Shown here: piece by piece, positions 8,532 through 31,950 of the stretch | Layout of the letters: the number at the start of each line of letters is the position of its first letter | Position numbering within the stretch: position 1 is the first letter of the stretch | Assembly (NCBI GenBank): GCA_013112585.1 | Contig: JABFGH010000002.1 | Location: 186,001 to 250,000 of the forward strand | DNA length: 64,000 nucleotides | Reading direction: 5' to 3' | From: Ignavibacteriota bacterium | GTDB taxonomy: Bacteria > Bacteroidota > Ignavibacteria > Ignavibacteriales > Melioribacteraceae | Position numbers and translations under genes: made by a program | The notes under the pieces: model-generated | Seen by the model: only the letters and a program-made list of their open reading frames with translations | Databases searched by the model: none | What the model was told of the DNA's origin: nothing

Positions 8532-8601
8532 TTAAATCCTCATTTTATTTTAAGTAGGTAAACCAACTATTTTTAGACGAACGAAACAATTTAAAGTTAA
8601 G

Positions 8602-9775: not shown

Positions 9776-11119
9776 TTACTTTATTATTTGTTCATCAAAT
9801 GTAATTGTGAACAAAGCACCTTTGCCTTTTTTGCTTGTTAAATTTAACTGTGCTTTATTTATTTCAACATAACTTTTAACAATCGCTAAACCTAAACCGT
9901 TGCCGTCAAACTTTCTTGTATATCCTCTGTCTTCCTGAGAAAAAGTTTTATACATATTTTCCTGGTATTCTTCAGATATACCAATTCCCGTATCACTAAC
10001 GTCAACTTTTATTTTATCGTCAGCGCCGGGATAAATTTTTACTAAAATTTCACCTTCATTAGTAAACTTAATTGCATTCTCTATTAAGTTAGAAAAAACC
10101 TGATCAATCATATGTTTATCGGCAAGTACTTTTCTGTCTTCAGCATTATTAATAAATTCAAACTTCAAATTTTTTCTTAAAGCATATCGTCTATACTTGC
10201 TTGTTAAGTTTTCAAGCACCTCGTAGCCAAGGTCTAATACAACCGGGTTGTATTCGTAATTACCGGTATGTATTTGTGACATTTCAAGTATCAAATCAAT
10301 TGTGCGGATAATTCTTTGTCCGGCAGCATTTATTATTCTAAAAGTTTCGCCTTGATCGGCAGGCAATTTATTTGCCATGGTATCTTTTAAAATGGAAGTA
10401 AATCCAAAAATTGTATTTATCGGCGTTCTAATTTCATGCGACATCTGAGCAAGGAATTCAGTTTTCAGTTTACTCAATCTTTCAGCTTCATCCTTTGCTT
10501 CTTTTAATTTTTGATTTACACTTTGTAATGATTCATACGCTTTAATTTGTCCTTTATAAAGCTGCGCATTACGTATAGCAATTGCTGCTTGTCCGGCAAG
10601 TATTTCAAACGTGTCGGTTATTTCACTCACTTTAACTTTTTGAATACGTTTACTATCAACGTAAATAACACCAATTTTTTTATGTGCTGTTACAAGAGGG
10701 GAGCAGAGAATTGTTTGAAGTTCTAGTTTGAATATACTTTTACTCGGGTCGTGTTCGGTATCGCTAAGTGCACCCTCAATAAATTTTGATTTGCCTGTGA
10801 AGAAAACATCCTCAACTACTGTTGTACTGATATTGAAACATGATTCGGGTAATTTATTATCGTTTGCATCAATACCTAATTTAAATTCAAGCTGTCCTTT
10901 TGAATCTTTAAGAACGATAAATCCTCTTTCAGCGAAAGATATATCAATAGCATATTTGAGAACCATCTCCAGTACGTTTTCAAGTATAAGTGATTTATTT
11001 ATACTTTTAACAATATCCAAAATACTTTTTAGGTTTTTTGCCGTTCCGCTAGATCCACTTTCCGTTAGGGTAGTATTGGATGAATGTTTAATGTTTTCTC
11101 GAAAAGTACTGAACTTCAT
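9776..11119 (-). CDS. Cytoplasmic GAF-domain sensor histidine kinase
   Basis: A 447-residue kinase with no membrane segment. Residues about 30-195 form a GAF domain. A short coiled linker (about 195-220) follows, then HisKA with the phospho-accepting H228 in AQMSHEIRTPIN, and HATPase_c with the N box NLIENAIKFT, DTGIGIS and GNGLGLAIV. It should sense a cytosolic ligand or a partner and autophosphorylate. No receiver-domain response regulator is adjacent. The same strand carries a TPR protein, a sigma-54 activator and a kinase/AAA/TPR protein upstream. In other bacteria, kinase-AAA-TPR and GAF-HisKA modules are often fused in one protein, so this kinase may be the detached output half of such a sensor. 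Confidence 0.92.
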   Translation of the reverse strand: MKFSTFRENIKHSSNTTLTESGSSGTAKNLKSILDIVKSINKSLILENVLEMVLKYAIDISFAERGFIVLKDSKGQLEFKLGIDANDNKLPESCFNISTTVVEDVFFTGKSKFIEGALSDTEHDPSKSIFKLELQTILCSPLVTAHKKIGVIYVDSKRIQKVKVSEITDTFEILAGQAAIAIRNAQLYKGQIKAYESLQSVNQKLKEAKDEAERLSKLKTEFLAQMSHEIRTPINTIFGFTSILKDTMANKLPADQGETFRIINAAGQRIIRTIDLILEMSQIHTGNYEYNPVVLDLGYEVLENLTSKYRRYALRKNLKFEFINNAEDRKVLADKHMIDQVFSNLIENAIKFTNEGEILVKIYPGADDKIKVDVSDTGIGISEEYQENMYKTFSQEDRGYTRKFDGNGLGLAIVKSYVEINKAQLNLTSKKGKGALFTITFDEQIIK

Positions 11120-11264
11120 AATTTTTATTTAGCTTGAAATAAAGTGTTAAAAAATAAATTTAATAGAACGTTAAAATAATAAAGAAAAATTTGAAAATAA
11201 TAACATTTGTAAAAAAAATATACAGATAATTATGGTTATGATTTATTATCGAATAAATTCTGAA

Positions 11265-12458
11265 TTAGTTGATACTAAAATCCTTTATCTGGGAATCAAA
11301 AACATTACTGCCTGCTTTTTTGTAAAATTTCGAGGCATCTTCAAAATATAAAAATGCTTCTTTATTTTGATTTTGTTCAAGAAAGAGTTTTCCTAATTCA
11401 TTAAGTGCAGCAGCAGTATTAGAAACATTACCCAATTCTTCATTCAGCTTTAAACTTTTTCTGATATAAAGTTCAGCGCTATCAAAATTTTTGTTCTTTT
11501 TTTCAAACAAACCTTTTAGAACAAAGATGTTTGCGAGTATTGCTTTCTCTTTTATCCTATCGGCAAACTGTGTTGCTTTACTGAGATAAGCCATTCCCAA
11601 ATTGTAATCAAATTCTTCTAAGTAAACTTTAGCTTTGTTAAAATAAATTTTTGCAATTAGAAAATGATTTTTTGTTTTTAATGCGTTGTATAAACTTTTA
11701 TTAAATTCTAAAAGTGCGGCTTTACTGTTATTTTTTTTAAGAAATACCAGTCCCATTTTTATATGAGCTATTGCAGTCTTTTCCGGGTTCTCAATCTGCT
11801 CAAATTTTATCTGCATCCGGTTAAAATGGAGATGAGCTTGATCATAATTACCCATTAAATATTCTATTTCACCTAATTTATTTTCCAAAATAACGGTTTG
11901 ATGAAAATCAGATTTATGATTTAGGAATTTAGCAGCTTCTTCAAAATAAAATTTAGATTTATCTAACTCACCTTTACTGAAATAGATACTGCCAAGTAGA
12001 AAGTCCGAACGAAAAAGTCCTTTCAAGTCTTTCTGTTCTTTGAAAAGAGTTTTTGCGGTTTCAACGTATTCCAAACTTTTGCGAAAATCATTTTGCTGAA
12101 AATAAATTTTACCAAGTTTTAAGATTGCGTAGGCTGAAATGTTAGCAAGGTTAGTACTTTTGCTGCTTCTATTTAATATCTGATTATTTATTTCCGAAGC
12201 TAATTGAAAATCGTTTTCGTCGAGTGAAATTTTTGACAAATTGTAAAGTAAGCTGTAAAGTTCTTCTTCCGATAGACTTATTTCGGTATCGTTAATAATA
12301 GCCTTTATCTGAAGTGCAAAAGCCATGCTTATATTGCGGGATTTATTTTTATTTCTTCTACTATTGGATCTATCAATTGGAAAGAGTTTAGTTGAATACT
12401 CCCTGGCTTTGCTTTCATTCAAATACTTTTTCAAAACTTCATTAACTTGTGTTTTCAA
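11265..12458 (-). CDS. TPR-repeat cytoplasmic protein
   Basis: 397 residues made almost wholly of tetratricopeptide repeats, for example LGKIYFQQNDFRKSLEYVET, LGEIEYLMGNYDQAHLHFNR and LNELGKLFLEQNQNKEAFLY. The N terminus (about 1-60) is basic and lacks a signal peptide, so it should be cytoplasmic. Superhelical TPR arrays bind peptides or proteins, and the architecture resembles the C-terminal TPR part of the neighbouring kinase at 14074-17652. The gap to the sigma-54 activator upstream is 235 bases, so it may have its own promoter. No enzymatic domain is visible. Whether it is a partner of the kinases or an RRNPP-like peptide receptor cannot be settled here. It lacks an obvious DNA-binding domain. 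Confidence 0.85.
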   Translation of the reverse strand: MKTQVNEVLKKYLNESKAREYSTKLFPIDRSNSRRNKNKSRNISMAFALQIKAIINDTEISLSEEELYSLLYNLSKISLDENDFQLASEINNQILNRSSKSTNLANISAYAILKLGKIYFQQNDFRKSLEYVETAKTLFKEQKDLKGLFRSDFLLGSIYFSKGELDKSKFYFEEAAKFLNHKSDFHQTVILENKLGEIEYLMGNYDQAHLHFNRMQIKFEQIENPEKTAIAHIKMGLVFLKKNNSKAALLEFNKSLYNALKTKNHFLIAKIYFNKAKVYLEEFDYNLGMAYLSKATQFADRIKEKAILANIFVLKGLFEKKNKNFDSAELYIRKSLKLNEELGNVSNTAAALNELGKLFLEQNQNKEAFLYFEDASKFYKKAGSNVFDSQIKDFSIN

Positions 12459-12693
12459 CGCGAGATATCAAATTAGTTTGAGAATTTTTAATAATAGCTA
12501 ACCAACTTGCAGCATATTGGTAAATCACACATGTTTGTCAAAAATTAAGCCAGCAAAATGTTCTAATAATTTGATAAAATTGAGGTAAAATAAACCTGAA
12601 ATGTAATTTTTACATGAAGAAAGGTAAGGGAGTGATTGAAAAGAAAAATTGTGTTAAACTTAACCGGGGCTGAGAAGTATTATTTTATATGAA

Positions 12694-14070: not shown

Positions 14071-14073
14071 TTG

Positions 14074-17000
14074 TTAGTACTTATTTTCAAATTTTTCTAA
14101 TTGCTCAACTGCACTCTTTCTTTCTTTAATTGATAAGTATGCGTTTTTAATTTTTGTATTTTTTATTTTTTTACTTATAAATTCTAATAATGATTTTGAA
14201 TATACAATAAATTCCTTTGCTTTGTGTAAGTTTCCCCTGTTAAAATAATATTCAGCAATTTTAAAAGTAACTTTCCAAGTTAATTCAGTTATACTCTCAT
14301 TTTCTAATGCGTTAAAAGCCTTTTCATAATGTTCAATGGACGGTGATAGTTCTAAGTTATTATCTTTAGAAGCAATTAGCCCAAAAATAAACTCTCTTTC
14401 CGCAAAAATCAACTTATTTTGATTACAGAGCTTTTCAAAATCATCTCTCCTAATAGTTTCAATTGCTTCCGGAAACTTATTTTCATCCAGCATTTGATAT
14501 GCGATTTGAAAATTTAAGAATGCGAATTCATTCTGCTCGCCCTGTTCCTGAAATATATTTTTTAATCTTATCAGCTCTGATAAATCAGCATTCTGCGTTT
14601 CATCTAAAACTAAAATAAGCTGCTTTTGGTAATCTAAGTATTGCTGATGTTTTGCGGTTAATCCGTTCCGGGATATTAAATTTTCCAATGTATCATATTT
14701 AGATTTTAATTCATCAATTAATCCCAGTATAAAATAATATTTACATGTTTGAAAAATCACCTGCACTTCTTCTTCAATATTCCGGGTTTTAATAAAAAGT
14801 GATTCAGCTTTTTCTAATGAATTAATTGCGGATTGATATTCACATATAGTGGTATAAACTTCGCCTAAATTGCTAAGAACCAATCCCTGACCTCGTGTGT
14901 TCCCGGTAGTATTAAAAATATTTAATGCTCTATTGTAAAGTTCAATTGCTTTTTCAAATGCAAGTTTATTGTAATTATAAATTCCATAATTTAATTGAAT
15001 ATATGCTTCTTGTTCAAAATTGCCTACTTCTAGGTTTAAAGCAACTGCTTTCTCCCAGTGTTTTTCAGCTTTGCTTGTTTCACCAATCATACTATAAATA
15101 TTGCCGAGATTGAGCTGGATGCCAGCATGCCTGCTAATAAGATTTGATTTCTCAAAGACATGCTGAGCATTATTAAACTCAACTATTGCATTATCGAGGT
15201 CGTTATTATTATAAATTTCATAAAGCCCCATCAAAGTGTAGCCCCTGCCAACAGTTTCTTGTGTTGAGTCTTTATCATTTATAACATCAACAATAAATTT
15301 ATAAGCAGTTTCATAATTACCTAAATCAAATTCTGCCGAGGCAATTTCAATTTTTAATTCGTTTCTTTTACTGCCGTCTTTCAGTTTTTCTAATTTATTT
15401 TTTAATAGTAAAATCCCTTCATCTAAACGGCTTAGTTTTATTAGGCAAATACCTTTTATAATGTCAAGATTTTCTTTGTCTTTTTCATTGGTTACAATTA
15501 TCGAAGTTTCGTCAATGTACTCTAAGCACTCATTAAGGGCATCGATAGTCAGCAGTACATTACACAATTCAAAGTTTACCTTTAATTGCTGCTCATCATT
15601 TAACGGCAGTTTTGCAACATGTTCTAATAGTTTTCTCTGGTACGTATAAGCTGAAATTAATTTTGCTTTTTCAATCTCAGTTAAGTAGCATTGATAACTC
15701 TCATCAATTTTACCTGCTAATTCAAATTGACGACCAAGTTCATAAGAGTATAAATCGCCTGTTTCATTTTTAAGCATAACTGCAGCTTTATGATGCAGTT
15801 TCTTTACGTCAGTGATTCTACTGTAAATATGATTTTTTAAACTCTCCGACGTAAACATTGGTGATGAATTAATATTTTCAGCCGAGAGGATATTTTTTTC
15901 ACTTAGATTTTTTAATAATGAATTAAACATTCCGGATTTTAATTTTAACAAATCTTCTAAGTCATCAATATTTATTTGGCTGTCAAATAAGGAGAGAAGT
16001 TCTGCAATCATCAATTCATCGCCGGTTAAATTATTTATCCTGACTGAAAAAATTGTTTCCTGATATTTTTCCAATTGAATTAATTTTTCTTCGTCATTTG
16101 TAATAACCGGACCGGCTTTTTTAAATTCCAGAATATTAAGCGCAATTAAATCTTTTATAAAACTTCTAATGCTTCCTGGCAGCAAATCGGAATAGCGAAC
16201 AATTAGTTCCAGCACTTCGTTCTTCGGGAAAAATGATGCATAGCTTGTTTCTAAAAAATTATCGATCTCGTTTTTTGAAAACGGTGTTAGATTAAATATT
16301 TGGCAGTTATTAATTATCGCCGAAAAATATTCCTTCTCACTATTTTCACTAATTATAGTTTTAACATTGTTTACCTGAAGTACCTGTACAAATTGTTTTA
16401 ATATCAATAAAGAAAAATCATCGGCAGTATTTATATCATCGATGAGTACAATAAATTTACCGGATTGGGTAATCTTTAAAAGTACAGCTTTCAATGATTC
16501 AATTAAATTGGGCGGGTTTGTCTCTACTAATTCTTTAGTCATTGCAATTTCTTCATCTGCAAGGTTTGTGTAAATAGAATTTGAGTAAAGAATTTGTAAG
16601 ACTAATTTTTTCCAGTAGTCAAAATTATTTTGGCTCGGGTAATTTTTTATATTTATTACATATTCGGCATTAGCTTTTATTTGTTTAAGAAGTATTGATT
16701 TACCACTTCCTTCAGTTCCTCTTAACGCTAAAACATTTCCTACATCTTCGCTAAGTAAATAGTAATCAATAGCAGCAATTGCGCTGCTTTCTCCTGAAAA
16801 GCATTTTGCTCCTATCCATTCATTTTTATATTTATCTTCATGTTCGATACCTAAATGTTCCAGAATTCCTAAACTAGTTTCAAATCTTTCAGAAGGATCC
16901 TTAGCTAAAAGTCTTTTTACCAATGTTTGAATATCATCGGAGTATTTGCAATTGGGAAAGTTAAACTCCTTGGAGATATGAGCTTTGTAAATTTCCAGTT

Positions 17001-17652
17001 CATCGTTAGTGCTGAATGGAAAATTATCATAAATTATTTTATAGATTAAAATTCCAAATGAATAGAGATCGCATCTGTGATCAATGAATTCCTTTTTGAG
17101 AACTTCAGGTGCAATATATTCTGCCGTGCCTCTAACTTCTAATTCATCAATATTCGGGTAGAAAAATGTAAATCCAAAATCAATTAACTTTACTTGAATT
17201 AAATCATCTACTTCATTTATTAAAATATTTTCCGGCTTTAAATCGTAATAAATATAATTTGACTGGTGCAGATAATATAGAGTCGTTGAAATCTGCTTAA
17301 TTACTTCACGTAATACTTTTTCATTTTTAATTGATGGAAAATCCAATAGGGGAGTGCCTTCAAAATATTCAAGTACAATAAATTGGCTCGATAGCTGAAT
17401 TCCCCAATCTGTTCCTTCGTTTTCGTTAGCTTCAAGAATTGTTAACTTTTCATAAACTTTAATAATATTTTTACTATTAAAATTTGATAGATAATAATAC
17501 TCTCTTTCGAACGCTTTAATTTCTTCAATTTCGGCATTGGCAGGTAAAACTTTTATCGCAAATTTTTTATCATAAAACTCATCGGTACAAAGAAATACTG
17601 CACTTCTCCCTTCGCCAATTTTCTTCAATATTTTAAATCTATTATTAATCAT
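14074..17652 (-). CDS. Ser/Thr protein kinase-AAA ATPase-TPR signalling protein
   Basis: 1192 residues in three parts. Residues 1-265 are a Hanks-type kinase: glycine loop KKIGEGRSAVF (10-20), AIKVL (K34), catalytic loop YYDLKPEN (D137) and DFG (D158). The usual HRD is YYD here, so it is a non-RD kinase. Residues about 280-600 form a STAND/AAA-like ATPase with Walker A GTEGSGKS (312-319) and a FIVLIDDIN Walker B. The remainder is a long TPR array. This resembles PknK and the N-terminal half of HstK-type multidomain kinases. It overlaps the upstream permease gene by eight bases and is followed after three bases by the sigma-54 activator. This ties peptide import, phosphorylation and transcription in one apparent operon. 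Substrates are unknown. Confidence 0.92.
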   Translation of the reverse strand: MINNRFKILKKIGEGRSAVFLCTDEFYDKKFAIKVLPANAEIEEIKAFEREYYYLSNFNSKNIIKVYEKLTILEANENEGTDWGIQLSSQFIVLEYFEGTPLLDFPSIKNEKVLREVIKQISTTLYYLHQSNYIYYDLKPENILINEVDDLIQVKLIDFGFTFFYPNIDELEVRGTAEYIAPEVLKKEFIDHRCDLYSFGILIYKIIYDNFPFSTNDELEIYKAHISKEFNFPNCKYSDDIQTLVKRLLAKDPSERFETSLGILEHLGIEHEDKYKNEWIGAKCFSGESSAIAAIDYYLLSEDVGNVLALRGTEGSGKSILLKQIKANAEYVINIKNYPSQNNFDYWKKLVLQILYSNSIYTNLADEEIAMTKELVETNPPNLIESLKAVLLKITQSGKFIVLIDDINTADDFSLLILKQFVQVLQVNNVKTIISENSEKEYFSAIINNCQIFNLTPFSKNEIDNFLETSYASFFPKNEVLELIVRYSDLLPGSIRSFIKDLIALNILEFKKAGPVITNDEEKLIQLEKYQETIFSVRINNLTGDELMIAELLSLFDSQINIDDLEDLLKLKSGMFNSLLKNLSEKNILSAENINSSPMFTSESLKNHIYSRITDVKKLHHKAAVMLKNETGDLYSYELGRQFELAGKIDESYQCYLTEIEKAKLISAYTYQRKLLEHVAKLPLNDEQQLKVNFELCNVLLTIDALNECLEYIDETSIIVTNEKDKENLDIIKGICLIKLSRLDEGILLLKNKLEKLKDGSKRNELKIEIASAEFDLGNYETAYKFIVDVINDKDSTQETVGRGYTLMGLYEIYNNNDLDNAIVEFNNAQHVFEKSNLISRHAGIQLNLGNIYSMIGETSKAEKHWEKAVALNLEVGNFEQEAYIQLNYGIYNYNKLAFEKAIELYNRALNIFNTTGNTRGQGLVLSNLGEVYTTICEYQSAINSLEKAESLFIKTRNIEEEVQVIFQTCKYYFILGLIDELKSKYDTLENLISRNGLTAKHQQYLDYQKQLILVLDETQNADLSELIRLKNIFQEQGEQNEFAFLNFQIAYQMLDENKFPEAIETIRRDDFEKLCNQNKLIFAEREFIFGLIASKDNNLELSPSIEHYEKAFNALENESITELTWKVTFKIAEYYFNRGNLHKAKEFIVYSKSLLEFISKKIKNTKIKNAYLSIKERKSAVEQLEKFENKY

Positions 17653-18928
17653 TTTTTAATTTTGGATTGAGAAAGACGTTTAAGTTGTCGCCCAGATTTT
17701 TTGCAGTTAACAATGCTGCAACTAAAAATAAACTAGGAAAAAATATCATCCACCAAGCGGTTGTAATGTAACTTTGTCCCGATTGAATCATTGATCCCCA
17801 TGATGGGAATTCATTTCCAATACCTAAACTTAAATAGCTTAACGCAGCTTCAGCCAAAATTACATTCCCAAATTGAAAAATTATATTCACGATAATTGGT
17901 GCGGATATAACAGGTAATATTTCATTTATTAATAATTGAGGTTTTTTTAATCCTATCATTTGAGCAGATAAAAAATAATCTTTATTCTTTAATGAAACAA
18001 GTTCGGTTTTGGTAATCTTAAACAGGCTCATCCAGCCTGAAAAACCTAAAACAATTATTATTGAAAAAATTGAATTACCGAATAAACCGATTATCAGCAC
18101 TACTAAAAATATCATCGGAAAAGCTAAAAACATATCTGTAATTCGGCTGAGTGCTCTATCAATAAAGCCGCCTAATAGTCCTGCAAGTGCACCAAACGAA
18201 AATCCTAAAACTATAGAGATGAATACAGCTCCCAATCCGATTAATATTGAAACTCTTGTTCCGTAAATTAATCTGGTAAATATATCCCTGCCGAATTCAT
18301 CCGTGCCGAACAAATATATTTTTGAATAAACTATCGGAGAATTATTTTTATTTTCAAATTGTGAAGGTTCAAAAGTTTTAACAGTATTATTTTGATGAAC
18401 ATAAATAAGCGAATCTATCGAGATCTTACTAAAAAAAATCAGGCTTTCATCAAACTCTTGCTTTACAATTCTATTCTTTTTTTGAACAAAATTAATTACA
18501 TCATTGCTATCAACAGTATTGTTTGAAAATCTTAAATACTCAACCTTGCTCAGCGGAGGTAATAATTTTGTAACACTTAAATTCTTCTGAAAGTTTGGGT
18601 TTTTATTTGTAATAATTGGTGCAAAGAGAATTACAAAAATAATAACAGCTACTGAGATGTTTGTAAAGTTTAGATGTACAGATACGGCATTAAACTTTTT
18701 TCTTAAAACAATAGATAAAATAGGAAGCGCGAGTAAAAGCACTGCACTCAAAAAGTAATCTAACAACTTTAAGCTGGTTAAATTAATTGTTATTCTAAAA
18801 TCAGATAGCAATAATAAAATGTAACTAATAAAAAGTGAAAGAATATTGAATTCAGTTTCAAATCTGAATAACAGAAGAATTATTGATAAGATAAAAACCA
18901 AACTCGATATTTTAACTTTGTTCTTCAC
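17645..18928 (-). CDS. Oligopeptide ABC transporter permease, DppC/OppC type
   Basis: Inner-membrane subunit of a peptide/nickel-class importer. At 427 residues it is about 120 longer than a usual DppC. The N-terminal ~190 residues contain several extra hydrophobic segments and a hydrophilic loop (VEYLRFSNNTVDSNDV), followed by the OppC core. That core has LFGTDEFGRDIFTRLIYGTR, the family hallmark, AGLLGGFIDRALSRITDMFL, and an EAA-like coupling loop near MIGLKKPQLLINEILP. It directly abuts the DppB-type gene upstream and overlaps the kinase/AAA/TPR gene downstream by eight bases. Confidence 0.9.
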   Translation of the reverse strand: MKNKVKISSLVFILSIILLLFRFETEFNILSLFISYILLLLSDFRITINLTSLKLLDYFLSAVLLLALPILSIVLRKKFNAVSVHLNFTNISVAVIIFVILFAPIITNKNPNFQKNLSVTKLLPPLSKVEYLRFSNNTVDSNDVINFVQKKNRIVKQEFDESLIFFSKISIDSLIYVHQNNTVKTFEPSQFENKNNSPIVYSKIYLFGTDEFGRDIFTRLIYGTRVSILIGLGAVFISIVLGFSFGALAGLLGGFIDRALSRITDMFLAFPMIFLVVLIIGLFGNSIFSIIIVLGFSGWMSLFKITKTELVSLKNKDYFLSAQMIGLKKPQLLINEILPVISAPIIVNIIFQFGNVILAEAALSYLSLGIGNEFPSWGSMIQSGQSYITTAWWMIFFPSLFLVAALLTAKNLGDNLNVFLNPKLKND

Positions 18929-19915
18929 TTAACCGTTTATCTCTTGAATCATTCGTTTATCAATTTTGAATTTTATTAGATCGGCAGCTAAGTTTGAAAA
19001 AACAACAGCAACCGATGCTATAAAAGAACAGCCCACAACTAACGGGTAGTCTCTAAGCATAATTGAATCTATCATCAGTCTTCCGAAACCCGGCAGTGAA
19101 AAAATAACTTCAGTGATCAATGTTCCGCTAAGCAATAAACCAAGCTCAATACCTGCAATAGAAATAAGCGGGTTTACTGCATTTGGTAAAATGTGTTTGA
19201 AAAATATTTTTTTATTTGAATAACCATTTGCGTGTAGATTTAGTACGAACGGTTCCTGCATTACGTTTACAATATTATCCCGCAAGTATTTATAAAAAAT
19301 AGCTATACCGCCCAATGAGAGTGTAATTAAAGGAAGAAATAGATGATGGGCGTAATCTATAAGTTTATTCAAAAAAGATTGATCATAACTATTAAATGAA
19401 GACAAGCCTGAGGAAGGGAACAAATTTAATTGCACTGAAAATATTAGTACTAAAAATAAACCGGCAACAAAAACCGGAGTCACATAAAATAAAATTGCTA
19501 ATTTGTTCAGTAGTTTATCAACAAAGCCGTTTATATTTTTTACAGAATAAATTGCTAAAAATAAACTAACTAAAATTTGAAAAATAAATACAATTGCAGC
19601 AAATATTAATGTGAAGGGTAAAAATTCCCAAATTACTTTTAATACCGGCATGCGATGGTTGTAGGAAATACCAAAATCACCCTTGGCTAAATTTATTACA
19701 AAGCTAAGGTATTGCAGCGGCAGAGGCTCATTCAGGTTAAATGATTCAGCAACGCTTTCTTTTAGCTGCGGACTTAATTCAGGGGAAATATATTTTTGGG
19801 TTGGGTCACCGGGTGAAATACGGACTAAAATAAATATGAAAGTGATTATTAAAAATATAGTTAATAATGATGAAAAAAATCGCTTTAGAATTTTAGCGTA
19901 TATATTATTTTTCAT
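18929..19915 (-). CDS. Oligopeptide ABC transporter permease, DppB/OppB type
   Basis: 328 residues, six predicted membrane helices, with the OppB landmarks RISPGDPTQKY near the N terminus, LNEPLPLQYLSFVINLAKGD, a central GLFLVLIFSVQLNLFPSSG, the coupling loop ANGYSNKKIFFKHILPNAVN, and TEVIFSLPGFGRLMIDSI. It forms the heteromeric channel with the DppC-type subunit encoded with no gap downstream. The binding-protein gene ends seven bases upstream. Peptide size preference cannot be read from the permease. Confidence 0.93.
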   Translation of the reverse strand: MKNNIYAKILKRFFSSLLTIFLIITFIFILVRISPGDPTQKYISPELSPQLKESVAESFNLNEPLPLQYLSFVINLAKGDFGISYNHRMPVLKVIWEFLPFTLIFAAIVFIFQILVSLFLAIYSVKNINGFVDKLLNKLAILFYVTPVFVAGLFLVLIFSVQLNLFPSSGLSSFNSYDQSFLNKLIDYAHHLFLPLITLSLGGIAIFYKYLRDNIVNVMQEPFVLNLHANGYSNKKIFFKHILPNAVNPLISIAGIELGLLLSGTLITEVIFSLPGFGRLMIDSIMLRDYPLVVGCSFIASVAVVFSNLAADLIKFKIDKRMIQEING

Positions 19916-19922
19916 ATTCTAT

Positions 19923-21575
19923 CTATTTTACTAAACTCCAATCCCAGCAAGCATGGATGGCGCCTAAAGGATTTACATCTATGTTTTTAATTCTGCTGTT
20001 ATATGCAACAATATTATCAACCCAATATAAAAATGTTACCGGTTCTTCATTATGAATTATTTTTTGAAATTCTTTCAATAAATTAATTTTATTTTGCTCG
20101 TCACTTTCATTATTAAATTCAGTAATAATTCTATCAACATTTTCGTTTTGATAAGATTGAAAATTTAGAGGCGCCTGTTCAAAATTTGAATGCCAATAAA
20201 CCGAAAGTTCTATTGGTATTGGAATATACCACGCCGCCATCCAAGCATTCATTTTTCTATCATATAGATTATCTATAAATTGTCCAAGTTCAAGAGACTT
20301 AATGCTTACATCAATACCCACTGCTTTAAGGTTGTTTTTAATTACAGTTGCAGCAAAATCTCTGCGCGGGTTACCTGCGGGTATAAATAGATCAAACTTA
20401 AATTCGACATTATCTTTTTCAATTATCCCGTTAAAATCTGTATCAGTCCAACCCTCCTCAGCAAGTATTAGTTTTGCTAATTCAGGATTGTATTGATATG
20501 GTTCAATACTTTTTTTAATTGCATTTTCAAAAATTGGTGCAACAGGGGTACTCGCTAAACTTCCATAACCGTAAAGAAATTCATTTAATATTTCATTTCG
20601 GTTTATTGCATGTGTTAAGGCTTTTCTAACATTAATATTCCCGAAAAAAATATTCGGTTCAATTTTCTTCTGCTCAAATTTTTCTATGTCAATATTACTC
20701 CAGCCAACATAATCGTACTCCCTGCCAACAACGCTCTTAATAATAATATTTTTGTCGGTTTCATTTAATTTATGAGCATCGTCCGGTTTTACTTTATCAA
20801 TAAAATCAATTTCTTCGTTTTCTAATTGTATTAGCTGCGAGTTATAATCAGGTATAATCTTAAATAATATCTTATCAATACTGTTATCCGCCGCTAAAAA
20901 TGAATTTCTGTTTAATGTTAATTCAATTAGACTATTTTTATTCCAACGCGTTAATTTGTAAGGTCCGTTAGTTACCGGATTAGAATTTATATCAGCAGTT
21001 TCAAAATCGGAGTAATCAATTCCTTCAAACATATGTTTGGGTATAATCGGCATGTCAATATCAAAGTAAGATGGGATTGAATTATTTTTGAAATGAATTA
21101 TAATTTTATTCTCAGACATAATCTCGAACGATTTTGAGATATCAATATGATTATCGGAATCCAAAATAAAATTATCGAACAAACCGAAAAATTTACTGTT
21201 AACCTTAGGATGAGAATAAGCATCGAATGAAAATACTACATCCTCACTTGTAACAGGTTTACCATCGGACCAACTAACATTGCGGCGTAAATTTATTGTA
21301 ATGCTCGATGAGTCTTCAGACCAAATGATATTTTCAGCCAGCATAAACTCTGTTCTTAAATCCGATATTTTATTATCCCAGCTGTGCTTTACTAATGAAA
21401 GATAGAGAAGTTCACTTATTCTACCTTCATTTACAGAGAACGAAAACATTGGATTAAAACTCTGAACATCTTCATCAATTCCAATTATAACACGGTTTAA
21501 ATTAGTAGGCTCACTTTGACAACTGATAATCAGAAGTGATAAGAAAACAATTAAGGCTGGTAAATTTCTTTTCAT
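19923..21575 (-). CDS. Peptide-binding lipoprotein of the ABC importer (SBP family 5)
   Basis: Solute-binding protein of the DppA/OppA class. The frame is open to 21626, but the start at 21575 gives a clean lipoprotein signal (MKRNLPALIVFLSLLIISCQ, lipid on the Cys) and a 550-residue product, so I use it. Typical SBP_bac_5 blocks are NLRRNVSWSDGKPVTSEDVV, TNGPYKLTRWNKNSLIELTL, ALTHAINRNEIL and IHNEEPVTFLYWVDNIVAYN. It is anchored outside the inner membrane and feeds peptides to the permeases encoded directly downstream. The upstream region of only about 75 bases is shared with the divergent ATPase gene. Confidence 0.93.
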   Translation of the reverse strand: MKRNLPALIVFLSLLIISCQSEPTNLNRVIIGIDEDVQSFNPMFSFSVNEGRISELLYLSLVKHSWDNKISDLRTEFMLAENIIWSEDSSSITINLRRNVSWSDGKPVTSEDVVFSFDAYSHPKVNSKFFGLFDNFILDSDNHIDISKSFEIMSENKIIIHFKNNSIPSYFDIDMPIIPKHMFEGIDYSDFETADINSNPVTNGPYKLTRWNKNSLIELTLNRNSFLAADNSIDKILFKIIPDYNSQLIQLENEEIDFIDKVKPDDAHKLNETDKNIIIKSVVGREYDYVGWSNIDIEKFEQKKIEPNIFFGNINVRKALTHAINRNEILNEFLYGYGSLASTPVAPIFENAIKKSIEPYQYNPELAKLILAEEGWTDTDFNGIIEKDNVEFKFDLFIPAGNPRRDFAATVIKNNLKAVGIDVSIKSLELGQFIDNLYDRKMNAWMAAWYIPIPIELSVYWHSNFEQAPLNFQSYQNENVDRIITEFNNESDEQNKINLLKEFQKIIHNEEPVTFLYWVDNIVAYNSRIKNIDVNPLGAIHACWDWSLVK

Positions 21576-21650
21576 AGGTTTATTTAATGAAATATTAAAA
21601 TTTAACTTTAATTTATTATTTTGCATTATAAATTACAAAAGAAGAAAAAA

Positions 21651-22406
21651 TTGCTGAAAGTAAAAATAAACAGGATAAAACTTAAGCAAACCATAACTAA
21701 TAAAACATTGCTTAATAAAATTAATTTTGAATTATACCCAAATATGGTTTATACAATTTTGGGTAAAAACGGAGCGGGCAAAACAAGTTTAATAAATTCT
21801 ATTCTTCTACTTCTTAATAAAAGAGATTATCAAAGTGATTGCAGCGTAATATTCAACGGGGTAGATCTTTATAAAATTAGTGAAGAGGAATTAAGAACTC
21901 TTAGAAAAGAAAAAATTAAATATGTTTTTCAGGATGCGCAAAAAAGTTTTGATCAGCTAAAAAATATAGGTTACTATTTTAATTCATTGGATTATGACAA
22001 TAACAAACTTGATGAACTCTTAGATTTTTTTAAGCTGCCTAAAAGAAATAAATTGTTTCTACTTTACCCTTATGAATTAAGTGTCGGCATGGCACAGAGA
22101 ATCAGTTTTATATTAGCCTTAGCCGCAGAGCCAAAATTAATTATACTTGACGAACCGACATCTTCGGTTGATAGCGTTATTGCAAATTTGTTTTTAATAA
22201 AGATTAAAGAATTTGTGAAGAAAAAGGATAATTCAATTTTGATAATTACACAAGATTTGCTATTTGCAGAAAAGGTTAGTGATGAAATTGCTTACTTATC
22301 TAACGGCAGTCTTACGGAATTTATTCCGCCCGAAAAATTTTTCTCCGAAGATCAATCGGGTGAATTAAATGAATTAGTTGAATTCTATAAATCTATTAAA
22401 GAGTAA
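21651..22406 (+). CDS. ABC importer ATP-binding subunit, DppD-like
   Basis: ATPase with Walker A LGKNGAGKTS, signature LSVGMAQR, Walker B LIILDEPTSS and the H-loop region replaced by ITQDLLFAEK. There is no ATG at the head of the frame. Either TTG at 21621 (261 residues) or TTG at 21651 (251 residues, preceded by GAAG) could start it, and I prefer the second because it leaves a divergent promoter gap. The H-loop His of most ABC ATPases appears as Q in this copy, which may mean it hydrolyses poorly and relies on a partner. It is divergent from the binding-protein gene and should pair with the DppF-like ATPase at 26642-27406. Confidence 0.85.
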   Translation: MLKVKINRIKLKQTITNKTLLNKINFELYPNMVYTILGKNGAGKTSLINSILLLLNKRDYQSDCSVIFNGVDLYKISEEELRTLRKEKIKYVFQDAQKSFDQLKNIGYYFNSLDYDNNKLDELLDFFKLPKRNKLFLLYPYELSVGMAQRISFILALAAEPKLIILDEPTSSVDSVIANLFLIKIKEFVKKKDNSILIITQDLLFAEKVSDEIAYLSNGSLTEFIPPEKFFSEDQSGELNELVEFYKSIKE

Positions 22407-22409
22407 CTA

Positions 22410-25385
22410 TTAATTTTTAAGCAGCTTCAGCGAAACAAACCATTCGGCATTATTACTATTTTTCCACCATGCATTTGCCGCACCGGCAGTAATTGTAGAT
22501 TCTAGGTTAAACCAATGTTTAAAAACAAAGCTGACTTGCCCGCCAATGTTAACCCATCTATCGGCTTCAGGGAAATTTAGTACTAATCCTTGACTGTAAA
22601 TTGAAACATCTATATGAGTTAAGATATGTTTGCCGATAAAACTTAAACTGCTGAATCTGATAGGAGGAAAACTATTTTCAATTAATATTTTTCCAAATGA
22701 GTTTGCCGGTAAGCTGTAAATTGAAGTCCCGGGAAAACGGAATACATCTCTGAATTGTTTAACATCAATGTTCTCTACATATCTGTTGCCAAATCCGCCA
22801 AAATAAAATTTAGCTTGAGGAATGTTTTTATTTTCATGATGATAACCGCCTGCAAAATTTAAGTGAAGTACATTGTGCGACCCAAACCACGTTGTAAAAA
22901 AACTCCACTCGCTAAAAACTTGGGCGGCGTATTCAGGTTTTTTCGGACTCTGTCCAAAACCGACTAATGACAGTTTGAATTCATTCCCGTGTTCATATCC
23001 CGAACTACCAATACTGCGTCTTAAATATTTTGAACTAAAAACAGTTTGCCCAACTAAAAAGTCTTCGCCTGAAACAGGAATTAAATTATCGTTAAAAAAT
23101 TCTATTCCTGTGTAATAAGTAAATTCAGTTTTTTGTTTAATCTTAAGCGGATTATCATAGTACCAAAAATTTGTATATCCGATATTGACACTTGTACCGA
23201 CCATACCTCGTTTTCTTTCGTTAAAGATATCGTAAAAATCGGGTGCATTGTGTTCAACTCTTAATTCAAAAATTTTCTTGAACTCATATTTACCCATCAC
23301 ATGATAATAGGGGAGCGGTGAATTTTTTTTGAATGGTGTAACTCCAAATTCCAGACTTAAATCGTGAGTTATAAGCGGATCAGAAATATGAGTATAGAAA
23401 CCTACCATAATTTCTTTTTGGAATCCGCTTACAACCGGAACAAAGGAGATAATATCTAAATTGGCTAATGAATTGTATGATTTATCAATAATATAATTTG
23501 TTGAATCAATAATTTTTTCATCGGGGTAAATAGTCCATTTAAATATATCGGGATGCAAATCAATTATATTCTGTCCTAAGTATTTAATTGCGGGTAAGTG
23601 ATCTACCTTTTTGTTCGGTATCTCAACGGGCAAAAATCCATCGTAATGATATTCAAATGCAAAGATTTTATCATCACTTAAATAAATCGGTTTGAAAAGT
23701 CCGGTAATTGAATGGGATATTGGATAAACGGTTTCATCAATTAAATCATAACGGTATATATTAGATACTCCATTTGTGAATGCATTAAAATAAATTGAGC
23801 TGCCATCACTATTCCATGATGGATTTTCGGGGCTTCCTTTTGTGTAGATTTCATCAAATTGAAATCTGCCCTCTGTTAAAATAGATTCAGAATCGGCAAT
23901 TACCAATGACTGGCTTCCATTAGAAAGATGAATTACTGCGGCAAGTTTTTCTCCGTTTGGACTAATAGATAACTGAGTTAGATCTTCACCAACTTTAAAA
24001 GTTACCAACCCATTTAGTTTTTGATAGGGGTAGTCAGAATAGACAAGTGAGGCACTACCACCGGAATGCTGTACACCCCACATCTCATTTGTCTTATCCG
24101 CAACAGTTATCGCCCCGACTCGATAATCCTCAAATAGCAGTTGCTTATCCTCAGTGGCTAAATGAATTGACCGGATATCGCGGTAAAGCTGGTTGTTATT
24201 TGTCGTATAATAAAATTTATTTTTTGTTGAAGAGAATGCTGTTGAAGCAACTTGATGCAGAATAGGTGTTGGCAGTGTTTCAATGTCTTCACTTTTTCCC
24301 GTGCGCAAATATAATTTTTGAATTGTCGCCAGTTTGTCGGCGTTATGATATCCAAAAATAACACTGCCGGTCACTCTATCATAATAGGGCTGTGTTACCC
24401 AGCCAAAAGTTTTTTTATATAGAGGTGTAACTTTTGTTGTTGGAATAGAAATTAATTTTTTGATGTTTGCAGCCTGAAATTCAATTTCGAACCTTACAAA
24501 GTTTTCCCATTCATCCTCTAATGAAGAATCGAATGTATCTTTAAACTTGCTGTAAAAACTTTTATAAAATTCGCCATCTTTAACTTTAAACCACTTAACT
24601 AATTTATCAACCCCATATTTGATTGAAAGATAAGAGGCAAATCTTCCTCCATATATATAGAATAGTTTTTCCAAATAAATAGTTGTTAAACTAGTTTTAG
24701 AAACTAGTTCAATTGGGCATGGAAAATTTTGAGAATTATGCACCATTGCTCTAAAAAACATTTCATCAAAACTTCCAAGCACTCTTCCGTAGCCACCGCT
24801 TAACCAGGTTTCCCAAAATACCGCGATCGATTCTTGATGCCAATGCGGTGTATAGCGGGAATAGTTTGTGAGTAAACTGTAAAGAATAGTCATCGGGTGC
24901 TGCTGCTCCGGCTGCACTTTTGAAAAGAGTGTTCTAAAGAAATTTTCCCAATCAGTTGCCGCATCATTTACCACCACATGTACAAGTTCGTGATTAAGCA
25001 GCCACTGGAATCTTTCATTGTAAGGAATATTTTCATACCCCGGTTCAAAAGGTTCAATCTCTAATCTTATAAAGTTCTGTGGCACTGAAGTAGCGGATGC
25101 AAATCCATAATCATAAACGTCATAAGTATTGATAATTATTTTTTCGCTGGGGGTATAATTGAATATTTCTGAGAGCTTAGCTAAAGATTTTTCTGCTGAT
25201 TCCAAAATATGTTTGGCTAAATGGGAATGAGATTCTCTATAAACTACTTTAAAATTTTTACTTTCTTTTATCAGCCAATCATTACTGCCATAGATGCTAA
25301 AGGCAGAAAAAAATGATAAGAAGACACTTAGCTGAACTATTTTTCTAATAAAGTTTTTAGGGATAAGCAATTTGCAGAGTTCCAC
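22410..25385 (-). CDS. Secreted HExxH metallopeptidase with beta-propeller and barrel-like C terminus
   Basis: 991 residues with a hydrophobic N terminus (about 12-33) acting as a signal. Residues about 40-300 resemble a gluzincin peptidase: NHELVHVVVND (H132, E133, H136), then a downstream WHQESIAVFWETWLSGG, where a glutamate could be the third zinc ligand. The middle (about 330-640) has WD40/TolB-like propeller repeats (SISPNGEKLAAVIH, SWNSDGSSIYFNAFTNGV). The last ~330 residues are beta-rich, with alternating aromatic strands, as in outer-membrane barrels. It ends three bases from the convergent DppD-like ATPase and lies just downstream of the repeat-protein gene on the same strand. Substrate is unknown. 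A role in cutting the repeat protein is possible but only inferred. Confidence 0.78.
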   Translation of the reverse strand: MELCKLLIPKNFIRKIVQLSVFLSFFSAFSIYGSNDWLIKESKNFKVVYRESHSHLAKHILESAEKSLAKLSEIFNYTPSEKIIINTYDVYDYGFASATSVPQNFIRLEIEPFEPGYENIPYNERFQWLLNHELVHVVVNDAATDWENFFRTLFSKVQPEQQHPMTILYSLLTNYSRYTPHWHQESIAVFWETWLSGGYGRVLGSFDEMFFRAMVHNSQNFPCPIELVSKTSLTTIYLEKLFYIYGGRFASYLSIKYGVDKLVKWFKVKDGEFYKSFYSKFKDTFDSSLEDEWENFVRFEIEFQAANIKKLISIPTTKVTPLYKKTFGWVTQPYYDRVTGSVIFGYHNADKLATIQKLYLRTGKSEDIETLPTPILHQVASTAFSSTKNKFYYTTNNNQLYRDIRSIHLATEDKQLLFEDYRVGAITVADKTNEMWGVQHSGGSASLVYSDYPYQKLNGLVTFKVGEDLTQLSISPNGEKLAAVIHLSNGSQSLVIADSESILTEGRFQFDEIYTKGSPENPSWNSDGSSIYFNAFTNGVSNIYRYDLIDETVYPISHSITGLFKPIYLSDDKIFAFEYHYDGFLPVEIPNKKVDHLPAIKYLGQNIIDLHPDIFKWTIYPDEKIIDSTNYIIDKSYNSLANLDIISFVPVVSGFQKEIMVGFYTHISDPLITHDLSLEFGVTPFKKNSPLPYYHVMGKYEFKKIFELRVEHNAPDFYDIFNERKRGMVGTSVNIGYTNFWYYDNPLKIKQKTEFTYYTGIEFFNDNLIPVSGEDFLVGQTVFSSKYLRRSIGSSGYEHGNEFKLSLVGFGQSPKKPEYAAQVFSEWSFFTTWFGSHNVLHLNFAGGYHHENKNIPQAKFYFGGFGNRYVENIDVKQFRDVFRFPGTSIYSLPANSFGKILIENSFPPIRFSSLSFIGKHILTHIDVSIYSQGLVLNFPEADRWVNIGGQVSFVFKHWFNLESTITAGAANAWWKNSNNAEWFVSLKLLKN

Positions 25386-25406
25386 AATTTTAATCAGTAC
25401 AATTTA

Positions 25407-25437
25407 TAAAAAAAAGCCTTCAATAATTGAAGGCTTA
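25407..25437 (-). terminator. Intrinsic terminator after the repeat-protein gene
   Basis: An almost perfect hairpin (AAGCCTTCAA and TTGAAGGCTT arms) whose minus-strand transcript ends in a U-run. It separates the repeat-protein gene from the metallopeptidase gene and would end most transcripts there. Confidence 0.8.
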
Positions 25438-25466
25438 AATTACAAAATTTTATTGCAAACTTTGAA

Positions 25467-26144
25467 TTATCTGACGAAACCGTAACGGGAACCCAGTTCG
25501 TTAAGCGCTGATGATCTAACAAAACCATAACGAGAACCTAATTCGTTAAGCACTGAAGATCTAACAAAACCATAACGAGAACCTAATTCGTTAAGCGCTG
25601 AAGATCTAACAAAACCATAACGAGAACCTAATTCGTTAAGTGCTGATGATCTGACGAAGCCGTAACGAGAACCTAATTCGTTAACTGCAGATGATCTAAC
25701 GAAACCGTAACGGGAACCTAATTCGTTAAGCGCAGATGATCTAACGAAACCATAACGAGAACCTAATTCGTTAAGCGCAGATGATCTAACAAAACCATAA
25801 CGAGAACCTAATTCGTTAAGCGCAGATGATCTAACAAAACCATAACGAGAACCAAGTTCGTTAAGTGCTGATGATCTAACGAAACCATAACGGGAACCTA
25901 ATTCGTTAAGTGCTGATGATCTGACGAAACCATAACGAGAACCTAATTCGTTAAGTGCTGATGATCTAACAAAACCATAACGGGAACCTAATTCGTTAAG
26001 TGCTGATGATCTAACGAAACCGTAACGAGAACCTAATTCGTTAAGTGCAGAAGATCTGACGAAACCATAACGAGAACCTAATTCGTCGACTTGAGATGAT
26101 GACCTGACAAACCCATACCTGCTGCCCAGATCATCTAATTGGGC
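25467..26144. repeat. 45-bp in-frame tandem repeat array
   Basis: Thirteen 45-base units followed (towards the 5' end of the gene) by two 48-base units, all in frame inside the secreted repeat-protein gene. Unit-to-unit differences are mostly synonymous, for example TAT/TAC for Tyr, TCT/TCC for Ser and TTT/TTC for Phe, in a mosaic order. There are no spacers, so this is not a CRISPR array. Confidence 0.95.
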
Positions 26145-26318
26145 AGAACTTTTATGCTCAACTGCTTTAAAATCCGGAGTCTCAACATCAATATTTTGAG
26201 GAGCTTCAATTGTTACAGCATCCTGTTGAACTCGAACTCTTGTAGCTTCCTCTACATTTTGAGCAAAAAGACTTGTACCTAGAAGGAGAAGTAAGAAAAC
26301 AAGAATGATATTTCTCAT
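25467..26318 (-). CDS. Secreted tandem-repeat protein, 15 copies of a 15-16 residue unit
   Basis: 283 residues. Residues 1-20 are a signal peptide (MRNIILVFLLLLLGTSLFAQ). Residues 21-57 are a unique acidic leader. From 58 to the stop there is nothing but repeats: two 16-residue variants (SAQLDDLGSRYGFVRS, SSQVDELGSRYGFVRS), then 13 near-identical units of SSALNELGSRYGFVR. Only two of the 13 differ (L to V, A to V). At DNA level the 45-base units vary at many third positions while the protein is kept. Each unit has two arginines and one glutamate. I do not recognise the family. It could be a multi-copy peptide precursor, a surface fibre or an amyloid-like repeat. A -24/-12 promoter lies upstream and a terminator downstream. 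Confidence 0.9.
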   Translation of the reverse strand: MRNIILVFLLLLLGTSLFAQNVEEATRVRVQQDAVTIEAPQNIDVETPDFKAVEHKSSAQLDDLGSRYGFVRSSSQVDELGSRYGFVRSSALNELGSRYGFVRSSALNELGSRYGFVRSSALNELGSRYGFVRSSALNELGSRYGFVRSSALNELGSRYGFVRSSALNELGSRYGFVRSSALNELGSRYGFVRSSALNELGSRYGFVRSSAVNELGSRYGFVRSSALNELGSRYGFVRSSALNELGSRYGFVRSSVLNELGSRYGFVRSSALNELGSRYGFVR

Positions 26319-26372
26319 ATAACACCCATAAATTTTAGATGATTTAATTTGTGATTTTTGTCACTAAAATGT

Positions 26373-26389
26373 TTGCATGGATTATGCCA
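26373..26389 (-). promoter_or_regulatory. Candidate sigma-54 (-24/-12) promoter of the repeat-protein gene
   Basis: On the minus strand the sequence is TGGCATAATCCATGCAA. GG and GC have the exact 12-base offset required by sigma-54, with TGGCA and TGCA flanks near consensus (TGGCAC-N5-TTGCA). The expected start of transcription, about 12 bases beyond the GC, is near 26364, leaving a leader of about 45 bases before the ATG at 26318. A sigma-54 activator is encoded 12 kb away. The rest of the 323-base gap up to 26641 is AT-rich with no gene visible. Confidence 0.65.
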
Positions 26390-26641
26390 TTGGGATAGGG
26401 ATGAAAAAATGCACATAATCGGTCTTTAAAGTTTTATTTAAAATAATGATGTAAACAAAAATTACAATTCTCAAAAATTGGGGTGTAAAAATATTTTACA
26501 TAAAAATAGGATTTTTGGATTATATTTTAACTTTTTTACTTTTAACCCATTTCTTTATCGATTTGTAGGGCTGAAAAGATTTCTTTGTTTAAGGCTGCTA
26601 ATGTTTTATTTTAAATCCATTAAAAGTGAGTTTTAAATGAG

Positions 26642-27406
26642 ATGAAGCAGTCAATATTAAGGTGTGTAAATATTTCCTATTCAGTATATAATTCTACAAG
26701 GTTAAAAAATGAGCAGTTGATTTTGAAGGATATCTCATTCAATGTTAAAAAAAACTCGATTTTTGGAATTGTAGGAGAATCCGGCAGCGGAAAAACAACT
26801 CTCGGTAAAATAATCTGCGGAATATTAAAACCGGTTACCGGCGAAATATTGTTTAACAATAATTCTCAAATAAATTCTAGAGTACAATTCCTATTTCAGA
26901 ATTCAGTTGAAATTGTAAATCCATTAAGAAAAGTTAGCTCAATACTTATTGAAGCTTTAATGATCAAAAGTAACAAAAGTGTTGAGGATAGACTTGGTGA
27001 TATTTTAACAACTTTGGGATTAGAGCCGGAAATATTGAGTAAATATTCTTTTCAATTAAGCGGCGGAGAGCGGCAAAGAATTGCACTTGGGAGAATTTTA
27101 GCGATTGAACCTGAAATAATTATTTTAGATGAACCTTTTTCTGCGCAAGATGTTCAATCACAATTAAATTTGTACCGGTTATTACTTCGACTTAAAAAAG
27201 AAAGTGATTTAACTATTATTTGTATTTCGCACAATATTTTTATTATGCAAAAAATTGCCGATGAAATTTTAGTTATTAAAGATGGGGCAGTTGTTGAAGT
27301 AGGAAGCGGCAGAGAAATATTTAATTCACCAAAAAGTAGTTTTACCAACTATTTAATAAAAGCCTCAAAAATGGAATTAGAAGATTCTGAAATTTTGTCT
27401 ATCTGA
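26642..27406 (+). CDS. ABC importer ATP-binding subunit, DppF-like
   Basis: 254-residue ATPase with Walker A GESGSGKTT, an FQNSVEIVNPLRKVSSILIE Q-loop block typical of the OppF/DppF branch, signature LSGGERQR, Walker B IIILDEPFSAQD and H-loop ICISHN. All catalytic motifs are intact. It is 4.2 kb from the DppD-like ATPase, with the metallopeptidase and repeat-protein genes between them. It is the obvious partner for that ATPase and for the permeases at 17645-19915, since no second set of permeases is in the window. Confidence 0.9.
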   Translation: MKQSILRCVNISYSVYNSTRLKNEQLILKDISFNVKKNSIFGIVGESGSGKTTLGKIICGILKPVTGEILFNNNSQINSRVQFLFQNSVEIVNPLRKVSSILIEALMIKSNKSVEDRLGDILTTLGLEPEILSKYSFQLSGGERQRIALGRILAIEPEIIILDEPFSAQDVQSQLNLYRLLLRLKKESDLTIICISHNIFIMQKIADEILVIKDGAVVEVGSGREIFNSPKSSFTNYLIKASKMELEDSEILSI

Positions 27407-31628: not shown

Positions 31629-31798
31629 TTTAAATATATTCGGTAAACCCGGCTAACCTGTAGGCAGCAGTAGAACGATAATAATCAATACAAAATAATA
31701 CATTCGTCCGCTTTCCAAAGAGCCTAACTTCAAAGACGAAGATATGATCTTGACTTTCAAGATTGCATTTCAGGTTTTTACATCATTCGATATTTGTC

Positions 31799-31950
31799 AT
31801 TTGAAATTTGTCATTTGTTTTTTGCCTTTTGCTATTTGAAATTTGTCATTTGTTTTTTGCCTTTTGCTATTTGAAATTTGTCATTTGTTTTTTGTCATTT
31901 AAAATTTTTCCTTTTCCCTTTTCCCTTTTCCCTTTTTCCTTTTCCTTTGA
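31799..31950. repeat. 35-bp tandem repeat followed by a polypyrimidine tract
   Basis: Units starting ATTTGAAATTTGTCATTTG begin at 31799, 31834 and 31869, a period of 35, with a shortened third copy. From about 31909 the sequence becomes repeated TTTTCCC runs to about 31947. The period is not a multiple of three and the stretch lies between genes, so it is non-coding. The surrounding gap (31629-32067) holds no gene I can support. Confidence 0.85.

Follow-up and report, generated by a model that had tools for sequence, protein, structure and literature searches.

A candidate peptide-signalling locus in Ignavibacteria, with one lineage-specific peptide on two secreted carriers, a linked oligopeptide importer, TPR proteins and a sigma-54 activator

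Peptide quorum sensing of the import type, with cytosolic tetratricopeptide-repeat (TPR) receptors, has been described for the Gram-positive Bacillota, and Gram-negative bacteria are taught as users of small molecules. Short linear peptides are also known as signals elsewhere: the enterococcal sex pheromones (cAD1, cCF10 type) are derived from lipoproteins and taken up through PrgZ/TraC and Opp, the yeast alpha-factor precursor is secreted with tandem identical pheromone copies that are freed by proteolysis (Kex2) and read by a G-protein-coupled receptor (GPCR), and the extracellular death factor (EDF) of Escherichia coli is a five-residue peptide from Zwf linked to MazEF. The five-point signature of the RRNPP systems, in which the imported peptide binds and switches the receptor, includes a Sec-exported propeptide of 10-100 amino acids, the last 4-10 residues of which are the signal, a TPR receptor of 250-500 amino acids, and adjacency of the two genes (PMC10075063). 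Among RRNPP propeptides, some hold more than one pheromone copy and some rely on signal peptidase II (PMC9765709), and these studies deal with Bacillota, the systems being Rap-Phr, NprR-NprX, PlcR-PapR and AimR-AimP (PMC10075063, PMC9765709). Here, a locus is described from a 64-kb stretch of an Ignavibacteriota genome (the window, C2:186001-250000 of the 4.94-Mb genome G000), which encodes a secreted precursor with a tandem peptide array, a secreted HExxH protein, an Opp-type oligopeptide importer, a cytosolic TPR protein, a kinase-AAA-TPR protein, a GAF histidine kinase and a sigma-54 activator (Table 1). It was compared with 294 genomes of the same class, Ignavibacteria, and the counts include related genomes, which are not independent; genomes, contigs, loci and families are designated G, C, L and f. 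A previous sequence-only reading had proposed a peptide-signalling loop in this window, and all the genes that it named were found at their positions, including the two ABC (ATP-binding cassette) ATPases on both sides of the HExxH protein gene and the repeat gene.

Judged by sequence comparison, the locus probably encodes both a linear peptide signal that is specific to the lineage and the means to read it. The first line of evidence is the array itself. All 15 units of the window array are distinct in DNA and 11 of the 15 are identical in protein, with a ratio of nonsynonymous to synonymous differences (pN/pS) of 0.04, which indicates that the units are under selection for their peptide sequence; among the units of 13 arrays from relatives the ratio is 0.03. 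Over the last eight residues of the units, 21 nonsynonymous and 1050 synonymous pair differences were counted (the pairs are not independent), and the overall pattern indicates that the likeness of the units is maintained by selection on the peptide, most strongly at its C-terminal end. Between species, this end varies at positions -1 and -3. The first two units are 16-mers with Q (SSAQLDDLG..., SSSQVDELG...), which is the usual form among relatives. The signal peptide was recognized by inspection of the sequence, and a motif of the pro-region, NVExAxRxRV, is conserved right behind it (window 26210-26260 and relatives, alignment). Array homologues, which hold 6-16 copies in relatives, were found in 18 of the 294 class genomes and in one further, partial case, and a phylum-wide sample of 395 genomes gave none outside this class; among phage families the array gave low-complexity matches only. 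Draft contigs often break within the array (L035, L042, L045, L049, L050, L052, L053, L054), and arrays are therefore under-reported in draft genomes. A strongly diverged unit, SNDQLEDLGERLSWWR, was observed in G203 (L050 12201-12638), adjoining a diverged TPR gene (10990-11994).

The second line of evidence is that two unrelated secreted proteins are seen, in their sequences, to carry one peptide. Importer loci without an array hold small lipoproteins of 168-243 amino acids (about 190), with a lipobox Cys that is invariant in the alignment (by inspection) and no clear family in Pfam and NCBIfam, and with C-termini such as HFSRYGFVR, HFSRYGWAK and HFSRFGFLR. The peptide common to both carriers is roughly [S/A/G]-R-[Y/F]-x-[F/W]-x-[R/K], about 7-8 residues. 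Two lipoproteins of this kind are encoded in the window genome (C1:179706-181042), with a TPR gene behind them, and in-frame RYGFVR occurs in that genome only in the 15 array units and these two proteins, an extra match at G000:C16:14550 being out of frame. The same holds for RYIFAK in G254, which is found in frame only in the array and two lipoproteins (an extra match at G254:C127 lies outside any open reading frame (ORF) of at least 60 amino acids), and in G257 the pattern matched the array and one lipoprotein, a second lipoprotein being found by sequence.

The peptides of the two carriers also co-vary within genomes. When the last seven residues of array and lipoprotein are compared in the 13 genomes that have both, 81 of 91 are identical against a permuted mean of 55.6, and the match is exact in seven genomes against 0.62 expected; none of 100,000 permutations reached the observed identities or exact matches (an earlier permutation on an incomplete genome list had given 6 exact matches, P 5e-6). 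The exact pairs are SRYIFAK (G254), SRYAFAK (G257), SRYGWAT (G266), SRYGFVR (G000), SRFGFLR/SRYGFLR (G058), SRYGFTR (G066) and ARYGFTR (G125), and in f14 genomes SAY-FGR or YIFGR is common to both carriers. Four lipoproteins of G125 end in GARYGFTR without the HFS motif, the same as the GARYGFTR of its array, which indicates that it is the peptide that is shared between the carriers and not the scaffold. Moreover, where a lipoprotein simply stops after the peptide, its final residue is also that of the array unit, which points to cleavage at the unit border. Whereas the whole 15-mer had been taken as the signal in the sequence-only reading, the notion of a peptide signal holds and its length is revised: the ~7-8 residues at the end of the unit are what the carriers share and what is constrained most, and they are probably the signal ([G]SRYGFVR in the window). 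The mature peptide may have 7-9 residues, as the carrier overlap suggests, or 15-16 if cleavage of the array is confined to the unit borders.

Tandem lipoprotein paralogues with differing peptides were observed at L244 (8615-10458), L243 (9528-11575) and L129 (13485-17443); the lipoproteins of G058 end in SRFGFLR, SRFGFVN, SRYGFLN and SRYGFLR, and those of G274 in SRYGFVN and SRYGWTR. Such differing peptides are perhaps several or competing signals, and several paralogues in one genome may form a set of agonist and antagonist signals.

The third line of evidence is co-occurrence. With importer presence called by a binding-protein match at E<=1e-100, either carrier was found in 52 of 70 genomes with the importer and in 4 of 224 without it (Fisher p 3e-37). 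In the two nearest families, the list of which omits some f2 genomes, a carrier occurs in all 27 importer-bearing genomes (lipoproteins only in 11, array only in 5, both in 11) and in 1 of the 24 others. The set of both ATPases and binding protein-permease B-permease C-kinase-activator, together with array and HExxH gene, is found in two families and, diverged, in f14 (importer about 33% identical); in G161, G058 and G066 the importer occupies another place in the genome than the array and the HExxH gene. Relatives with the importer-kinase operon and no repeat gene had been named as a refutation in the sequence-only reading. Such relatives do occur (11 of the 27), yet all 11 genomes have peptide-ending lipoproteins, and no array without importer was sampled except in G150, where no binding protein was found. 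The array thus appears, by sequence, to be one of two carriers.

Candidate readers of the peptide were sought by partial Mantel tests, which are exploratory (17-27 genomes, seven components tried). Divergence of the binding protein tracks that of the peptide (partial Mantel r 0.29, p 0.002), also with permeases and kinase controlled (r 0.33, p 0.004; p <= 0.014 in all subsets), whereas the divergence of permeases, kinase, activator and ATPases does not; only the partial test is significant, the plain Mantel test of peptide against binding protein giving p 0.12. This exploratory result points to the binding protein as a reader. The second candidate is the cytosolic TPR protein (397 amino acids in the window, about 400 in relatives; TPR_12, E 1e-25). 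Of 59 lipoprotein genes, 47 are followed by a TPR gene (background 11 of 1073, 1%), and a GAF histidine kinase often comes next. The model of the window protein has a mean predicted local distance difference test (pLDDT) score of 89, and RapI (Z 25.3), NprR (25.1), RapH (25.1) and RapF (24.2) are among its best bacterial structure matches; the profile match to RapF has E 7e-15, and LGN and designed TPRs score better.

The sigma-54 promoter that had been claimed for the repeat gene was confirmed as an exact site: TGGCAY-N6-TGC has no other perfect match in the 64-kb window, where 0.64 would be expected. RpoN is encoded in the genome (PF04552, E 1e-58). In relatives, sites of the form TGG[CA]A[CT]-N6-TG at 40-130 nt upstream precede 12 of 14 arrays with the activator in the locus (exceptions G102 and G023), none of four arrays without it, and 18 of 711 control ORFs; lipoprotein genes are enriched for sigma-54 sites as well (scored scan, Mann-Whitney p 6e-7). 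A -24/-12 promoter, an enhancer-binding protein and RpoN, the elements of a sigma-54 autoregulated operon, are thus present, and activation is predicted. The N-terminus of the activator looks receiver-like but carries His where a phosphoacceptor Asp would be expected (DIIIIHLEEL), and ordinary phosphorylation control is therefore doubtful. In G066 and G058 the arrays have neither a sigma-54 activator beside them nor a sigma-54 site; reading of the sequences next to the array points instead to a sigma factor of the ECF type and, probably, an anti-sigma factor (L045 10567-11940, L054 941-2319), which would be a switch of regulator type.

In its occurrence the HExxH protein follows the array and not the importer. 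It combines an HExxH motif and a conserved downstream E with a TolB-like propeller and a barrel-like C-terminus; in its model, of moderate confidence (mean pLDDT 65), only the propeller is firm, and a metallopeptidase domain is proposed from the HExxH...E pattern and from Peptidase_MA_2 matches, which are weak and were seen in 3 of 10 members. With orthologues defined as >1300 bits, or a fragment in G263, array and HExxH orthologue coincide in 18 of 19 genomes in each direction, one of them being the fragment. Both exceptions involve contig borders: in G150 the array stands at one, and in G195 the sequence breaks off immediately upstream of the HExxH gene, at the place where the array would sit. 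G257 and G248 have the full HExxH gene unlinked to the array, and lipoprotein-only genomes other than G195 have no orthologue. This distribution suggests an array-processing enzyme, and the simplest reading of the sequences is that the protein processes or exports the array; of its supposed place in the loop, the tie to the array stands and the part in the import circuit does not. A distant subfamily with the same HExxH-propeller-barrel build (29-32% identical) occurs in about 25 class genomes, and the inspected loci (L142-L150) have neither array nor importer nearby.

Based on these data, the following route is proposed. The precursor would be exported, and cleavage would fall behind the final residue of each unit, carried out on the array by the HExxH protein at the outer membrane and on the lipoprotein by another protease. 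The released peptide, of about 7-16 residues, would be captured by the binding protein, imported through the linked Opp-type importer, and act on one or both of two targets, the TPR protein and the TPR region of the kinase-AAA-TPR protein. This sensing would switch the sigma-54 activator, together with the GAF kinase, and the activator would drive the precursor gene and other sigma-54 genes in a self-amplifying loop. The comparison strongly supports peptide signalling by way of these parts (precursor, importer, TPR regulators, sigma-54); we infer cleavage, import, binding, activation and the sign of each step from it. A broader reading, in which we have moderate confidence, is that of a complete Gram-negative pheromone system in several families, with one lineage-specific heptapeptide on two unrelated carriers (a widespread one, the C-terminus of an outer-membrane lipoprotein, and in some lineages an array with its own processing metallopeptidase), a coevolving importer and Rap/NprR-like TPR receptors, and a sigma-54 output.

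Several observations weigh against a peptide signal read in this way. A natural free C-terminus is not universal among the lipoproteins: both proteins of the window genome carry a short tail after SRYGFVR (+RNVNH, +RNVGY), as do a few others, and many end in N, Q, I or F instead of R/K. The peptides of the two carriers differ in some genomes (3/7 identical in G248, 5/7 in G274). Neither carrier was found in 18 importer-bearing genomes, mostly of family f4; at the single f4 locus inspected (L156), neither kinase nor activator lies beside the importer. The TPR gene of the window is not adjacent to the array, and the TPR fold is closer to eukaryotic LGN/Pins (Z 29.8) than to Rap (25.3). Family f14 has the activator and no sigma-54 site before the array.

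Among other explanations, the best surviving one, which we nevertheless regard as improbable, is that array and lipoprotein tails are a surface ligand or a sorting or anchoring tag for a shared outer-membrane or periplasmic partner, for example the HExxH-barrel protein, and that the importer is incidental. It would account for the export of both carriers, the C-terminal motif in both, and the fact that a barrel-bearing protein tracks the array, and arrays could be multivalent ligands. However, the lipoprotein carrier occurs in many genomes without an HExxH orthologue and almost always with the importer, peptide divergence is tracked by the importer's binding protein, lipoprotein genes are paired with a gene for a cytosolic TPR protein, and a sorting tag should be present on more than two or three proteins per genome, whereas RYGFVR is on no others. 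Still less probable is that the array holds several cores of an antimicrobial peptide of ribosomal origin, in which case importer and regulators would serve immunity or self-sensing. Tandem cores under strong purifying selection and regulation by a dedicated activator would be in line with it, but no modification enzyme of ribosomally synthesized and post-translationally modified peptides (RiPPs), bacteriocin exporter or immunity gene was found in the conserved cluster (Pfam/NCBIfam, neighbours), the sole RiPP-like match being a weak TPR similarity to HaaT, and the same peptide on a lipoprotein tail beside a TPR regulator fits a signal better; a RiPP precursor was rejected since the cluster has no tailoring genes. 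An ordinary peptide-uptake operon that by chance neighbours a structural repeat protein, with the peptide likeness due to a beta-strand motif (HFS-x-Y) of the lipoprotein domain, is very improbable: Opp-type importers are common and HFSxY does resemble a structural strand motif in the alignment, but co-variation and gene linkage are far beyond chance, the order importer-kinase-activator-carrier recurs in several families, the pN/pS of 0.03 together with the co-variation led us to reject a structural or chance repeat, and the ARYGFTR shared in G125 without HFS context led us to reject HFSxY as the sole cause.

Table 1. Features of the locus, in window positions
Feature	Position	Strand	Basis or remark
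GAF-HisKA-HATPase histidine kinase, soluble	9776-11119	-	often downstream of TPR gene
Cytosolic all-TPR protein, Rap/NprR-like fold, candidate intracellular peptide receptor	11265-12458	-	Pfam, model
Sigma-54 activator, receiver-like N-terminus and Fis-type helix-turn-helix	12694-14070	-	Pfam E 6e-64
Ser/Thr kinase-AAA-TPR protein	14074-17652	-	kept beside importer in most relatives
Importer permease C (Opp-type)	17645-18928	-	domain matches, neighbourhoods
Importer permease B (Opp-type)	18929-19915	-	domain matches, neighbourhoods
Oligopeptide-binding lipoprotein, SBP_bac_5, Opp4A-like	19923-21626	-	E 5e-67
ABC ATPase 1 of oligopeptide importer	21621-22406	+	domain matches, neighbourhoods
Secreted HExxH (gluzincin-like) protein, TolB-like beta-propeller and probable outer-membrane barrel	22410-25385	-	
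Array precursor REP: signal peptide, pro-region, 15 tandem units	25467-26318	-	283 amino acids
Tandem array: two 16-mers and thirteen 15-mers, consensus SSALNELGSRYGFVR	25470-26150	-	
Sigma-54 (-24/-12) promoter, TGGCATaatccaTGCA / TGGCATAATCCATGCA	26389-26374	-	71 nt upstream of repeat gene start codon
ABC ATPase 2 of oligopeptide importer	26642-27406	+	domain matches, neighbourhoods

The SBP_bac_5 binding protein, two BPD permeases and two ABC ATPases make up a full Opp/Dpp importer set, and NCBIfam Opp4 models match these proteins with scores under the curated cut-offs. The kinase gene is followed, at window 6642-9660, by genes for two possibly peptide-degrading products: a secreted peptidase like M3 oligopeptidase F and a lipoprotein of the beta-lactamase family. 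An intergenic region at window 31783-31945 holds heptad-type simple repeats, a 35-mer repeated 2.7 times at 100% identity and then TTTTCCC six times.

No described Gram-negative system of this composition was known to the sequence-only reading, and in the open-access literature none was found for Ignavibacteria or other Gram-negatives. A conserved Gram-negative counterpart with predicted peptides for some thirty genomes could be tested at once with synthetic heptapeptides, and the co-variation of two carriers offers a purely computational route to mature signal peptides, without mass spectrometry. The array may also show how a lipoprotein tail could evolve into a dedicated pheromone gene.

Among the known systems, the yeast alpha-factor is alike in its tandem-copy secreted precursor and differs in being eukaryotic and unrelated, with Kex2 and a GPCR, and EDF is alike as a linear peptide signal in a Gram-negative bacterium and has no array, importer operon or TPR receptor. 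With the enterococcal pheromones the locus has in common that a short linear peptide, here predicted to be imported, would come from a lipoprotein; the enterococcal pheromone is the tail of the lipoprotein signal sequence, whereas here it would be the C-terminus of the mature lipoprotein. The RRNPP systems resemble the locus as it is proposed here, with predicted Opp import, a precursor with a putative export signal and a C-terminal signal sequence, and a candidate cytosolic TPR receptor; adjacency of precursor gene and TPR gene is seen for the lipoprotein carriers (47 of 59) and not for the window array. Differences are the Gram-negative phylum, the dedicated HExxH-propeller-barrel protein, and the linkage of the importer operon with genes for a Ser/Thr kinase-AAA-TPR protein and a sigma-54 activator, and the likeness to RRNPP receptors is shown for the TPR fold alone. 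The candidate receptor is TPR-built and within 250-500 amino acids, whereas the array precursor (283 amino acids) and the lipoproteins exceed the 10-100 amino acids of RRNPP propeptides; therefore, the locus is best described as one that would work like an RRNPP system, without being called one.

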